Positions 24,687 through 34,656 of a stretch of DNA of 64,000 nt are shown here, one piece after another; position 1 is the stretch's first letter, and each line of letters starts with the position of its first letter. Both the position numbers and the translations under genes were made by a program. Source of the stretch: Vulcanisaeta moutnovskia 768-28 (GTDB lineage Archaea > Thermoproteota > Thermoprotei > Thermoproteales > Thermocladiaceae); the NCBI RefSeq assembly GCF_000190315.1, contig NC_015151.1, positions 1,922,001 through 1,986,000 on the forward strand, given 5' to 3'. Under the pieces are notes generated by a model. It saw nothing but the letters and a program-made list of their open reading frames with translations. It did not search any database and was not told where the DNA came from.

Positions 24687-25092
24687 GCACTGCATTGTAG
24701 TACTGAGCGAGTCTCGGCTTGAAGTTCAGGAACTCCTTAATAATCCTAGTCTCAAAATCAATCCTCCTATCAGGATCCCTATCTAGGATCAGGACACCCC
24801 TGCTCACGACCTCATACGCAAGCGACAGTGATGCCTTATTAAGGTGAATAAGGTCGACCTTAAGCCCAAGTGCGTCCTCTAAAGTAATCATAATGCTCAT
24901 GAGCTTCTTCCAGTCTAGTTCCCTGCCCGTGAATACGACAATGTCAAGGTCACTCCCTGGACGTGCCCTACCAATCGCCCTCGATCCAAATACATACGCG
25001 AACAGCACAAAGTCAAACCCCTCTAATACCTGCCTCGCCTTATTGATTAAATCTGTCAATTCCTCATTACTGATGGCGAGCTGATTATCCAA
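24676..25092 (-). CDS. minimal nucleotidyltransferase (MNT) domain protein
   Basis: The motif GSRAIGRARPGSDLD contains the Gly-Ser pair (residues 36-37) and the catalytic Asp pair D48/D50 of pol-beta-type nucleotidyltransferases. Such proteins pair with HEPN proteins, and in characterised MntA/HepT systems they add AMP to the HEPN toxin. The TTG start at 25092 is uncertain because the frame is open further upstream into the HEPN region, so the original gene may have been a HEPN-MNT fusion. Confidence 0.75.
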   Translation of the reverse strand: MDNQLAISNEELTDLINKARQVLEGFDFVLFAYVFGSRAIGRARPGSDLDIVVFTGRELDWKKLMSIMITLEDALGLKVDLIHLNKASLSLAYEVVSRGVLILDRDPDRRIDFETRIIKEFLNFKPRLAQYYNAVLNP

Positions 25093-25467
25093 GGGATCTA
25101 TTAACCTATCCCTAATGAAACTACTAATCTCATTAATTACCCTATCTAACTCGTCAATCTCACTTAAAGCCTCAAGTAATCTCTCGGGGATCTATCACGG
25201 CATAGCCGTGGTCAAGCACATTCCTAAGGCTAATCCACAACTCGAACAATCTACTAGTTCATTACTAAGGACGTTGGCGTTCGCCAATATTCTCGCAACA
25301 TCCCTATACCTCTCAGGTTTATTAAGATTAATAATTGAACACAACCTCATACTGACATTAATGAGGGATTCAACGGTACCCCTAAGCGCCAAATCCCTAT
25401 CCAAATCATCGACAGTCCTCGCTCTATCCCTAATCGACCTTAGAATATTTACATAACTCCTATCCAT
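25093..25467 (-). pseudogene. HEPN domain (DUF86/HepT-like) with two compensating frameshifts
   Basis: The start at 25467 reads a helical HEPN N-terminus. Near 25255-25265 the homology moves into another frame, which encodes RNVLDHGYAVIDPRE, a perfect RNase-type R-x4-H-x-Y signature. Near 25180-25190 it returns to the first frame and runs on without a stop into the MNT gene. Frame one has stops at about 25192-25197. The pair of indels inactivates only the catalytic segment, unless they are sequencing errors. Confidence 0.65.
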
Positions 25468-25567
25468 CGCCAATTTATCATTAATTATCACGTTACCATA
25501 CCAAATTATGCACTCCTTACTTAAGCTAAAAGCCTTGCACATACTAATTGCAGGGGCTTAATGAAGG

Positions 25568-25630
25568 CATGTCAGCGCGCAGGTCTTGGGTCCTCATCCA
25601 TCAGATCCGTCCCCGCTTTACATCACCAAT
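25568..25630 (-). ncRNA. candidate C/D box guide RNA
   Basis: On the minus strand there is a C-like box GTGATGT (25626-25620), about 15 GC-rich bases, a D'-type CTGA, a C'-like GGATGA a few bases later, about 18 GC-rich bases and a final CTGA (25575-25572). This order and the total length of about 60 bases match archaeal 2'-O-methylation guide RNAs. The GC-rich inserts stand out in an AT-rich gap. The C box has one mismatch to RTGATGA and the second insert is slightly long, so this is a candidate only. Confidence 0.4.
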
Positions 25631-25662
25631 TAAATGAACTAATAACCCATTAATAACCCTTA

Positions 25663-27251
25663 ATGCTTAATATCATGAAGTTAAGGTTTAATAGAGATTT
25701 CATAATGGTGAATTTAATGCCTTATGGAAGGATACACGTAAAATCATTAATCATAATCGCTATATTATCGATAATTATTAACTCATACATGCTCATTCGC
25801 GCTCAATTAGGCATTAATAATGCCGTGGGCGCGGCTCCTGGTGAAATAAACATAGGTAATGATGTACTTCATACATATAGGTCTGAGGCTCCCTTAATGT
25901 TACAGTCTATGTTATTGGAGGTAAGGCCTTGTTTCAGGACCTGATTAACGTGGGTTTGAATTCCTCATTAATTAAACCTGTAAGTCTTAATCAGCTATCT
26001 GAATTGCCGGATAATAGTGTCGTGGTTATTGATTGGTCTGTGATAAGGAATAGCGTGGTTGCTGGTGATCCGGGTAGTTACGTGGAGTTGAACCTAACGA
26101 GTCCTATTATTAATGACTTAGTTAACCTTATCAGGAATAGTGATAGCGACATCATCGCTGTTTACGCAAATGCCACGGATGAGGATACCGTTGAGTACGT
26201 ACTAGCATACTCATGGGCCAGGGCTATTAATAATACGTTATCGCTAAATCTAGGCGGAGGCTCATCCGTGCAGGATTACCTGGTGGCTTACCCAGTAATT
26301 CCTGTAAATACTCATGAACCTATTCTAATTGCAATGTACTGGGTTAGTCCGAAGAAATTAATAATGGGTCCACTGTACCCATCACAGTTCATGACTTTTA
26401 TTAAGAATATCGTAGACAACATGGTGATAAATGATTCGACGGATCCTGTAGATCCATGCTTTGCGATGGCTAGCAATAATGCCGTGTTCATATGGGCAGC
26501 GCCCATGTTCGTGGGTGTATCAAGTTTGGGTGTGCAGGCTTATAATGATGGTAATGGGACGTTCTTCTGGGACTCATGCTTAACGGTTAGTAACAGGATC
26601 CTTAAGGCATCACCGGTAGGTCCTTGGTACTTAACCGTCAACGTCTTTAATTATGAGGGTTACTTTGAATTATCAACCATGTATAACAATGGTGGTTTTG
26701 ATGGTTATCAAATCGGTGTAATTGATTACTATTATGGCTATGAAATGTACATGAGGAATATCACCAATGCATTGATAGGCGACATGGGCAGTATTGCACC
26801 ATCAACCCTGAGCACAAGCGCAACTAGTGTGCATGTATCATGGAGTCCATCAGTGAGTATAATGCCTCAGCTTGCTATGACCATTAGCAATATTACGTGG
26901 TTATTCCATGTAGATAAGGCCGGCGATAACATAGCATTTCCAAACTCCTTTGCGGATGAATCGGCAGCCGTATATTTACCAGGTTTTAACGAATCACAAC
27001 AGTACTTAGCCGAATTCATGGTTGATTTTGAGAACAACGCCGTCACCAAAGACTTACCATGCCTATATGCCGTAACACAGACAGTCTGGGCTAGGATTAC
27101 CTGGGAGGTCTACATAATACCCAGGTCAAGCGAACTTGTCAATGTCTATGGTAACGTTAGTCTCCTAACACCGGCGACACTGCCTTTCCATTCATACTAC
27201 GTATCTGGGGTCTCGTCATTAATCGTACCTATCTATTGCCCACTATGGTAA
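25663..27251 (+). pseudogene. membrane-anchored secreted protein, frameshifted
   Basis: The first frame (25663-25944) gives a basic N-terminus and one transmembrane helix at about residues 26-48. The homology then moves to a second frame that is open from 25887 and runs to 27251. The join near 25885-25895 restores a strand pattern (VYVIGGKALFQDL) and the motif SVVVIDWSVI. The protein at 44427-45974 has the same order: an N-terminal helix, KFIIVGPTSLY, then SILIIDLSYV. The two are probably distant paralogs of about 520 residues. Function is unknown. It may be a true frameshift or a sequencing error. Confidence 0.6.
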
Positions 27252-28892: not shown

Positions 28893-29426
28893 TTAGGTTA
28901 ACCTGCCAATGCTTTTATTGAACCAACTATTGACGTAGTACCTTACCAAGGGATAGAGGATCCTCAGGAACACGCCGGCCACTCTGTACGTGATGCTGGG
29001 CACTATATCGCCATTAAATCTAGGATCGTCGATTTTCTCGGCAATTTTATTAGCCACATAACCAGGATCAAGGACAGGCCCTTTAGGGCTGTCCCTAGCC
29101 CTGGACGCGGTCGGTGTTACTATGGTATTGCTGTGGAAGTCAGTCCTAACATAGCCTGGGTATACACCAATGACCCTAATTCCCAGAGGCCTAAGCTCTA
29201 TCCTTAAGGCATCAGTAATATTAGCTAGGGCTGCCTTGGACGATGTATATATGCCGAACCAGGGTATGGGTATGTAGGCAGCCAGGCTTATTACATTGAC
29301 GACACAACCCTTATTCTTGGCAAGATCCGGGAGGAACTTCTTGGTGAGTAGTATTGGCGTTAAATAGTTAAGACTCACTATCCTGACTATGTCGTCATCG
29401 TTAAGTTCGCCTAATGGGCCATAAAA
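28893..29426 (-). pseudogene. short-chain dehydrogenase, 3' fragment of an interrupted gene
   Basis: This carries the catalytic half of an SDR: the Tyr-x-x-x-Lys motif in YTSSKAALANI and the PGYVRTDF region. Upstream, the frame is open as far as the codons for FYGPLGELND and then meets a stop at the edge of the inserted element. The matching 5' half lies at 31544-31830. Joining them gives a normal SDR of about 270 residues, so the gene was intact before the 2.1-kb insertion. Confidence 0.85.
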
Positions 29427-29492
29427 CTCTCGTTACTGACTATGTTGAAAGGAAAAAATTAGTTTTTGACCGGCCCGTGGGTTTGGGCGGGG

Positions 29493-30991
29493 CTAGGCGT
29501 TATCAAAGCACTTTAGGTTCCGCATTGCCTTGGCTATCCTCTCCCTCCTCCTCTCGTTCTTTTCGCCCTCAAGCCACTCGCTCAGCTTCTTGCGGATTAT
29601 TGGCTTGAGTGGACTTTCACGAATGTTGGCGTGTGTTATTGAGATTACGTGGCTCCCCTTCTCGACGTATATTGTTGGGTTGTAGCCTGCTCTCCTGAGC
29701 TCCTCAACCAACCTCAAAGCCTCACTCTTATCCTTTCTACACGCCCTAAGCTCGACATAGTAATTACTGTCTATGTGGATGCTCATGCTTATGTTCGTTC
29801 CAGGAATTATGATTGATGAGCTGCCTTTTTCTTTAGCATCCTTTGACGCAAGCTCGATTATCCTCCTAAGCTTACCACTGCCGAGACTCGCACCAAGCTC
29901 AATCAGCTCCTTGAGGTCGGGCATCGCCAACCAATCCCTAGCCAGCTTGACAGCCTTGCTTGACTTGAGTACAACCTCGACACTGTACTTCCCTGGTTGC
30001 ATCGTGAAGCCAAGCTCATTTATCAACCTCTCGATAATGCCGAGCCACAGGTCGTACTTAGTCAAACCCATTGTGAGTCTCATGGACTTCCTGTTAACGT
30101 TGACATAGCCGTCGCCCAAATCGCCGGTGCCATGAATGCCCTGAGTCTCTCGGTGCTTAGTTTTTTGACCCCCTCAGCGACATCCTCCTTAGACTTCGCC
30201 CTGTGATCCTTGGCAGTTAAAACCCACCTAATTGATACGCCATCCTCATTTAAGCCTATGCCGTGTATGTACATGCGAACCTCTCCAGGATAGCACAGCG
30301 ACCACAAAACCACTTGCCACGGCTGGCTCGTACCCATTGCTGGACGCTTACGTTTAATACTTCCATCTGTAATCTCCCAGCCGTATTGGATAGCCCTTAG
30401 TAACTCCCCATCGATGAAGGTGTTGTCTACCTTGACGTCGTCTCCCTCGAGCTCAGACAGCGTTAGGTTTATTGTGATGTTTCCACTCTTCGCAACCTTG
30501 GCAACATCAACAGTTACGTCCTTGTTGTATAGGTGCACCATCAGCGATTTCTCGCCGTTATTCTCGCCAGTCACTATTACGTCTATTGCGTTCCTCTCGA
30601 GCAAGTCCATGAGTTCCAGCAACTGTCTCCAGTATGTCTCGATCCATTTCCTCCTCAGCTTCTTGAGGAGCTTAATCATCTTCTTCGCGATTCTCTTAGC
30701 CTCCTTGACTTTCCTACCTCTATCATTCTCGTGCTCCCCGAGCCATTGCTCGAGTAAGCCAATAAGCCCGTCAATGAATGCCGCAGACTCAAGCTTATCC
30801 TTATGCCTCTCAAACCTCCTCCTCAACTCATTAATTAACCCCTCGACCTCCTTTATGACTTCCTCATCCGTCACCAGCTCCTTGCAAACGAGCCTCCTAC
30901 CGCGTTTAACACCCCAACAAATCCTACCCAAACCCACGGGTTGTGTTTCGATCTCCACAGTTTTGACCTCGCTTACCACTCCGCTCACCAA
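29493..30991 (-). pseudogene. PaRep2b family protein, split by one frameshift
   Basis: The first frame (30991-30080, TTG or GTG start) encodes about 300 residues, with the family-like start ETQPVGLGRICWGVKRG and the FMAPAIWA segment at its end. The second frame (from about 30119 to 29493) continues with LGDGYVNVNRKSMRL and about 200 more residues, so a single base change near 30112-30120 breaks a gene of about 500 residues. PaRep2b is a multi-copy family of unknown function in Thermoproteales. A TATA-like element lies just upstream of 30991. Confidence 0.65.
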
Positions 30992-31437
30992 TTAGTAATC
31001 CCAGCAGGGCTTAAAAACGCGGCAGGGTGCATTGCCGCTTGCCTAGGGTCGATAAGTAAAAATAATTGTTTTGATGCCGCTGGTACTGTGTTGTTTCTAC
31101 CGTAACCCATTGCGGCCGAGTAATACCCAGGCCTTTACGGCAAAGCCAATGCTACGAACGCAGTCCGAGACAACCCCGCGAATTAGGCCATCATAAATTG
31201 CCCCAACACCCCAAACCCACACCCACCATCCAATTAACCCACGCATTGCATTGGATTTCTTCCGGCAAGCGCCTATAGAGACTGCGCGAACAAAATTTTA
31301 GGGTAGAGACATAACCCACGCACCACAAGCAAAACACCGCCCAACCCATATATGCATGGTTAGGTATTTACCCAATCACCCCATAATAAATTATTAAAGA
31401 CAAACACCACAGCACCACCCATACTTACAAGAAAAGA
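30992..31437. other. non-coding part of the inserted element
   Basis: About 450 bases contain no credible reading frame. The stretch has runs rich in A and C on the plus strand, for example around 31203-31245 and 31320-31350. They resemble the A/C-rich stretch upstream of the tRNA-Phe gene at 46112-46175. It may be the former upstream region of the tRNA whose 5' end lies at 31466. Confidence 0.5.
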
Positions 31438-31450
31438 CTTTTAAATAAAA
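31438..31450 (+). promoter_or_regulatory. TATA box of the truncated tRNA gene
   Basis: The sequence CTTTTAAATAAAA lies about 22 bases upstream of the tRNA fragment start at 31466. Spacing and composition are similar to the tRNA-Phe promoter at 46178-46187. The promoter may still be active and produce a short RNA. Confidence 0.5.
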
Positions 31451-31465
31451 CACGACAAACAAAAC

Positions 31466-31488
31466 GCCGGGGTGGCCGAGCCAGGTCC
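31466..31488 (+). pseudogene. 5' fragment of a class II tRNA gene (Leu or Ser type)
   Basis: The 23 bases start GCCGGGGTGGCCGAGCC and continue AGGTCC. They match the acceptor 5' strand, positions 8-9, and the D-arm up to the GG of the D-loop in archaeal Leu/Ser tRNAs. The match stops before the second half of the D-stem. No continuation is seen in the next 55 bases, after which the SDR gene resumes. A spliced tRNA with a D-loop intron is not supported locally. Confidence 0.6.
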
Positions 31489-31543
31489 TTCATTGTTAAT
31501 CCCGTCATCATACGTGGCGCATTATTGCCAGGAAAGACGAGAG

Positions 31544-31830
31544 GAACCTCCCCAAAGTCCCGTGCCGGCATTGTTCACTAAAACGCTGACCTCAATGCCG
31601 AGACCTCTGACCCTGTCAACAAGTTCATTAATTCTACTCAAATCCGAGAGGTCATGATCGATGGGCCACGCATTGACGCCATACTTATCCCTAAGCTCCT
31701 CAGCTAAACCTTCCAGGACATTCCTCCTCCTACTGACGAGTATTAGGTTGTAATGCCTAATGGCTAGCTCTTTGGCTAGCTCCCTACCTATGCCAGATGA
31801 TGCGCCTGTTATTAGGGCTACCTTACTCAC
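31544..31830 (-). pseudogene. short-chain dehydrogenase, 5' fragment of an interrupted gene
   Basis: The nucleotide-binding half of an SDR is complete: TGASSGIGRELA at residues 8-19 and LVNNAGTGLWG at the end. The frame then enters the inserted element and stops after about seven unrelated residues. The start is ATG 31830. The missing half lies at 28893-29426. Confidence 0.85.
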
Positions 31831-34373: not shown

Positions 34374-34656
34374 TCTCCCACTATCAATGCTAATACCCAG
34401 GAATATAAAGTCTCACTAATGTTTGGGATTACGCAACCTGAAGTTTCGGTATTTACTCGAATCTAGATAAATGGTAAATCACCGTATTATTATTACTTAA
34501 CTTAGGTTATTAAATCGAGACGGTTTCATTACATTGCCCTGCACCTAAAGGTCCTTAAATACATGCAGCGGTTGTGGCTGTATCTACCTAACCTAATGCA
34601 AGCTATTGATTTTGAATTGTAATACACGTATATTATTAAATTATACAGCAGGTAAT
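34374..34656. other. intergenic stretch with no gene found
   Basis: No reading frame with credible coding features was found on either strand. The left 40 bases contain the promoter-like element of the MNT remnant and possibly its decayed N-terminus. The rest is AT-rich, with no repeat or RNA signature that I recognise. Confidence 0.5.

Follow-up and report, generated by a model that had tools for sequence, protein, structure and literature searches.

The short-chain dehydrogenase (SDR) gene of the window, the whole 64,000-nucleotide stretch analysed (G000:C1:1922001-1986000, within G000:C1, a single contig of 2,298,983 bp), was found to be interrupted by 2,128 bp that are absent from its nearest comparator, G005. 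The insert is probably, if far from assuredly, a patchwork brought in by illegitimate double-strand-break repair, containing a broken copy of a free-standing gene that encodes a two-motif LAGLIDADG-like protein. On sequence comparison, the family of this protein is amplified in Vulcanisaeta and distantly related to PaRep2b of Pyrobaculum. The explanation draws on the empty site, the predicted LAGLIDADG fold, the dN/dS values and the captured fragments with short homology, and further on two other interrupted genes, an excess of neighbouring tRNA genes and a precedent in phage T4. An earlier sequence-only reading, in which a PaRep2b gene was caught inside an otherwise complete SDR gene, was partly confirmed as an observation and partly supported in its interpretation.

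The interrupted SDR gene and the anatomy of the insert

Both SDR halves matched adh_short in Pfam (each E 1e-18), and G005:C101 was found to encode an intact SDR of 268 aa at the same place without the insert, with flanks by the insert 99.2-99.6% identical in nucleotides to the window. The proposal of two halves parted by about 2.1 kb was thus upheld, and comparison with the 99%-identical G005 showed the anticipated empty site, which reads GTGCGGGACTTTATGGCCC (also written GTGCGGGACTTTATGGCCCATTAGG). The occupied site in the window reads GGCACGGGACTTT up to the left junction (31554 side, SDR 5' part), GGGGAGG...ACGAGAGT as the ends of the insert, and TTTATGGCCC from the right junction (29425 side, SDR 3' part), the order being GGCACGGGACTTT, the 2,128 bp and TTTATGGCCCATTAGG. 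The insert spans exactly 29426-31553, and an additional TTT is ambiguous between its two edges (31554-31556 or 29423-29425); this TTT may be a 3-bp target duplication or microhomology, the two being indistinguishable. Of the sharp boundaries drawn earlier, the right edge was correct to within 1 bp and the left edge lay 10 bp off; the halves so defined (31544-31830 and 28893-29426, 821 nt) join out of frame. When one TTT is kept, 31830..31554 and 29422..28893 join into 807 nt encoding 268 aa, with 6 positions differing from the G005 protein. An in-frame join through AGG...AGG was rejected as coincidence because the empty site shows another junction. Six mismatches with G005 were clustered at 31563-31600, beside the left junction; of the 24 window-G005 differences in the 2.9-kb left flank, 6 are no farther than 47 bp from the left joint. 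The features of the interrupted gene and of its insert are as follows.

31554-31830, minus strand: SDR 5' part, ending GGGACTTT
31554-31556, no strand: TTT at the left junction, repeated at 29423-29425 at the right; empty site GGGACTTTATGG
31491-31553, minus strand: FAD-dependent oxidoreductase gene fragment, about 62 bp, by sequence similarity
31465-31488, plus strand: first 24 nt of a tRNA-Leu-type gene (acceptor strand and D-arm), identical to the start of the L015 tRNA
31428-31464, plus strand: promoter-like region upstream of the tRNA-Leu-type fragment, with TTTAAA
31001-31427, minus strand: 5' non-coding region of the unit, about 430 bp
30080-30991, minus strand: N-terminal part of the LAGLIDADG-like (PaRep2b-related) ORF, motif 1 YGWEITDGS
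29493-30119, minus strand: C-terminal part of the ORF in a different frame, starting at motif 2 GDGYVNV
30927-30940 with 29474-29487, no strand: 14-bp inverted repeat CCCAAACCCACGGG/CCCGTGGGTTTGGG
29447-29492, minus strand: conserved 3' tail past the stop, GCCCCGCCCAAACCCACGGGCC..., its core common to the other copies inspected
29426-29446, minus strand: insert end (21 bp), an imperfect copy of SDR sequence
28893-29425, minus strand: SDR 3' part

The oxidoreductase fragment shared 91-95% identity with the G005 allele (G005:C11:31185-31253) and about 80-87% with the resident gene at G000:C1:1650121. Its similarity extends across the junction into the SDR gene (GG-CTTT), and the joint therefore sits at a short homology. 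The tRNA-Leu-type fragment with its promoter region showed 89% identity to L017 (tRNA-Ser) and 88% to L018. Within the 5' non-coding region, 31190-31300 resembles the region upstream of the copy inserted in a xanthine-dehydrogenase-type gene (70% to L014 5482-5367), and 31309-31372 showed 78% identity to L012 6780-6717. The core of the 3' tail, CCCAAACCCACGGGCC, comes after the stop in the other copies inspected, and the insert closes with 21 bp of which 16 agree with SDR sequence lying 53 bp downstream, a value reached by 0.01% of shuffles. We take the oxidoreductase and tRNA pieces, the 21-bp copy and the mismatch cluster to be marks of template-switching or error-prone break repair, none of which would be expected from a transposase. 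The view of the insert as a discrete element with defined ends was not supported, and the 14-bp inverted repeat was rejected as a pair of transposon ends of the family because its left arm (30927..30940) is unique to the window copy. The statement that no transposase, recombinase or reverse transcriptase is visible holds for the insert. An archaeal mRNA intron carrying a homing-endonuclease gene and spliced out to leave a functional SDR would agree with the frame restored on removal and with the LAGLIDADG genes that occur in archaeal rRNA introns of the same order (PMC4496867), but it is very unlikely, as no bulge-helix-bulge motif was found at the insert junctions and fragments of other genes lie there.

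The ORF was found to be split over two frames (30991-30080 and 30119-29493) by a 1-nt frameshift just before motif 2, with GGG in the window and GGGG in the intact L013 and L014 copies; it is possibly a sequencing error in the G run near 30113, where one more G would yield a single ORF. That position would also suit an assembly or sequencing artefact as the source of the whole arrangement, an idea that is scarcely credible for a genome in a single contig of high completeness in which two further copies interrupt other genes; moreover, the insert with its 62-bp fragment and tRNA piece was not identical to any other place searched.

Other differences from G005 were observed. The oxidoreductase locus (L087, L019) is only 76-78% identical between G005 and G000, though identity is about 99% around the SDR gene, which suggests allele replacement at that locus, the inserted fragment resembling the G005 type. 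At window 24713-26944, similarity to G005 falls from >99% to about 70-90% at about 26.8-26.9 kb, which on the alignment is a sharp recombination boundary inside the ORF 25929-27251, a surface-protein-like gene. About 123 bp of intergenic sequence (window 34472-34594) are absent in G005, with AATG homology at the edges, and probably reflect a deletion in G005.

Predicted fold of the protein family

The Pfam PaRep2b profile (PF07775) had no matches in G000, was not among the Pfam matches of intact family copies and matched many loci in Pyrobaculum, while a P. oguniense relative, L134, matched it below threshold. Profile-profile comparison (hhalign) of the family with PF07775 gave 95.5% with an E value of 1.4e-8 over about 180 columns. 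The designation as a PaRep2b gene therefore stands as far as distant homology is concerned and fails as a direct family match. Both groups are multicopy in Thermoproteales and differ in length and architecture.

The family had been regarded as one of unknown function, and its predicted fold was found to be LAGLIDADG-like (AlphaFold, Foldseek). The AlphaFold2 model of an intact V. distributa relative, L110, built from 18 aligned homologues of Vulcanisaeta, Thermoproteus and Pyrobaculum, reached a pLDDT of 88.9 and contains two copies of the alpha-beta-beta-alpha-beta-beta-alpha LAGLIDADG fold. In a Foldseek search against the PDB, each of the best 50 matches listed for this model was a LAGLIDADG or WhiA protein (best E 1.7e-4), and I-DmoI gave a TM score of 0.55 by its own length; normalised to the query, the score is low, owing to the additional N- and C-terminal domains of the protein. 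The L134 model (pLDDT 82.9) was similarly matched by LAGLIDADG proteins at nearly all top ranks, with a best E value of 0.016. The Asp residues of both motifs (LLLTDGS and LGDGD) are conserved in intact Vulcanisaeta copies, and motif 2 of the window copy lies past the frameshift. By sequence, LAGLIDADG profile matches were below cutoff (PF14527, E 0.24; phrog_11023, E 0.091), and searches of Pfam, NCBIfam, PHROGs and the PDB with the protein gave nothing significant, with no PDB sequence match. The dN/dS values of orthologous intact copies from G007 and G010 were 0.29-0.44; one G007/G010 pair, of which one copy has stops, gave 0.76. Fold and dN/dS together point to a LAGLIDADG-like protein under purifying selection, and, as modelled, the family is of the two-motif LAGLIDADG-like type with a homing-endonuclease fold and a putative nuclease role. 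A viral origin was set aside, as no family relative occurs in viral contigs.

The predicted fold, with its two motifs and conserved Asp-Gly, is that of the LAGLIDADG homing endonucleases I-DmoI, I-Tsp061I, PI-PfuI and E-DreI, of which archaeal members are known. Unlike these, the family lies outside introns and inteins, has an extra N-terminal helical domain and a C-terminal domain, shows sequence similarity below detection and is of putative activity. No paper linking PaRep2b to LAGLIDADG was found among those accessible without subscription.

Other copies, interrupted genes and neighbouring tRNA genes

The family gave 19 matches in G000, comprising five full-length ORFs plus fragments, with intact copies at G000:C1:140918-142369 and 935523-936989, and two of the loci proved to be further interrupted genes.

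L014 3395-5554 (G000:C1:935394-937553): insert in the xanthine-dehydrogenase-type (xdh) gene, with a family copy and a tRNA-Lys-type 3' half
L012 3303-7042 (G000:C1:1863302-1867041): insert of about 3.7 kb in an aldo/keto reductase (AKR) gene

The xdh gene is intact in G007 and G010, with the empty site GGTGAGGTGCCCGTTGGTGTGGC, and its insert of about 2,158 bp ends in the tRNA-Lys-type 3' half, joined at a CCCGT common with xdh, with no target duplication. Another family copy was observed in G007 and G010 just outside the same intact gene. The AKR gene likewise has an empty site in relatives; its insert holds two family copies or fragments in opposite orientation plus other gene pieces, one of which, read from its translation, looks like a histidine-ammonia-lyase gene. 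Common to the inserts in SDR, xdh and AKR are only the coding region, the short stretch of 3' tail and some of the 5' non-coding region, and each insert carries different captured fragments. The search for other copies with common ends and for target duplications, proposed by the sequence-only reading, thus turned out differently from what a clean mobile element would predict: common ends, terminal inverted repeats and a consistent target duplication were absent across the three inserts, with at most the TTT at SDR and none at xdh. A GGTG tetramer close to each of the three target sites is probably due to chance.

A non-autonomous transposon, moved by a transposase acting in trans and with decayed ends, would account for the 3' tail common to copies, the similar unit sizes (2,128 bp at SDR and about 2,158 bp at xdh) and the TTT at both ends of the SDR insert, and one paper describes PaREP2b as a putative transposon (PMC3558965). 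This is nevertheless improbable, as the ends differ among copies, terminal inverted repeats are lacking, xdh has no target duplication, and fragments of host genes and tRNA genes lie inside the ends. Copies elsewhere without any common end had been named in advance as evidence against the sequence-only reading, and since this is largely what was found, the transposon reading is largely undercut. A different proposal is that a random break in SDR captured stray DNA and that the abundant LAGLIDADG-like gene was caught by chance as a passenger. The short-homology joints, the unrelated captured fragments and the abundance of the family favour this proposal; the presence of the family in all three gene-interrupting inserts of one genome speaks against it, with an ascertainment bias. 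Chance capture is judged somewhat unlikely, and it is the strongest rival because the other interrupting copies were found by searching with the family.

A tRNA gene within 320 bp was detected (Rfam scan) at 10 of the 48 loci scanned, to which the statistic is confined, where the genome rate would predict 0.61 (Poisson P about 1e-9, the 48 loci not being fully independent). Most of the neighbouring tRNA genes were in opposite orientation, at a distance of 48-90 bp where they lay 3' of the family gene and of 210-550 bp where they lay 5' of it. Copies thus lie near tRNA genes more often than by chance, and the association is partial, most copies having none. Universal adjacency was rejected with 2 of 20 loci (mostly of G007 and G010) having a tRNA gene within 2 kb; in Pyrobaculum, the count was likewise 2 of 20 loci. 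At L013 3257-3331 (G000:C1:140756-140830), a tRNA-Asn-like gene adjoins a full-length family copy; its anticodon, T and acceptor stems are mispaired and only model positions 8-63 match, so that it reads as a chimera or a decayed gene or pseudogene. No empty site was seen for L013 in G005, whose contig stops at this point. In P. oguniense (G036), true Pfam-PaRep2b genes at L186 and L187 were observed to have a tRNA gene at a distance of about 60 and 90 bp, and the one at L187 is flanked by two co-oriented tRNA genes, an arrangement also seen in L013. The SDR target GCGGGACT resembles a tRNA-Leu anticodon arm, a short likeness that may be due to chance.

Proposed break repair and the meaning of the family

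Under the favoured explanation, a double-strand break in SDR would have been repaired illegitimately, the broken end being joined to, or extended via short homology into, a piece of an oxidoreductase gene. A next switch would have led into a piece holding the 5' part of a tRNA gene and the endonuclease-like gene, with closure by a short templated copy of SDR's own sequence. The break itself may have been caused by the endonuclease of the family, whose frequent place beside tRNA genes would then reflect its targets. The suggestion that the PaRep2b-related protein itself takes part in movement is upheld in this conditional form, as a putative endonuclease; the fold is predicted and the anatomy of the insert is observed, and cleavage and causation are what we infer from them. 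Microhomology insertions can arise without an endonuclease, and the frameshifted window copy, the partial tRNA adjacency, the lack of a significant LAGLIDADG sequence match and the lack of a clear shared motif among the SDR, xdh and AKR sites likewise count against this explanation.

In phage T4, when homing-endonuclease breaks are repaired illegitimately, the junctions show microhomology and ectopic invasion may become possible; T4 SegB, whose gene lies between tRNA-Arg and tRNA-Ile, has the tRNA intergenic region as its target (PMC2988022). The family gene is similarly stand-alone, often lies beside tRNA genes and may spread by break repair. SegB, however, is a GIY-YIG enzyme of a phage for which homing has been shown, whereas the family is LAGLIDADG-like, chromosomal and multicopy, with an inferred mechanism. 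Compared with free-standing homing genes, empty sites and short-homology joints were seen, without long flanking homology. A 1.8-kb insertion in Caldiarchaeum with a tRNA-Thr fragment (PMC3293823) is likewise mobile DNA edged by a scattered 5' tRNA fragment; its product is a predicted DNA recombinase, that of the SDR insert a LAGLIDADG-like protein.

PaRep2-related genes are heavily repeated in Thermoproteales without an assigned function, and the predicted LAGLIDADG fold suggests that site-specific DNA cutting is an activity for which they can be tested. As the 99%-identical empty site shows, a copy entered with marks of break repair and not by clean transposition. It is conceivable, though unlikely, that PaRep2-type proteins at large are stand-alone LAGLIDADG endonucleases cutting in or near tRNA genes, and that illegitimate repair disperses halves of tRNAs, along with the endonuclease gene, into protein-coding genes, which could cause broken or chimeric tRNA genes in Thermoproteales. 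Because of the link to tRNA genes, a purified intact copy could be tried directly on tRNA loci. LAGLIDADG endonucleases and free-standing homing genes are already known kinds; what would be new, if true, is a multicopy chromosomal archaeal LAGLIDADG family tied to tRNA genes and patchwork insertions.
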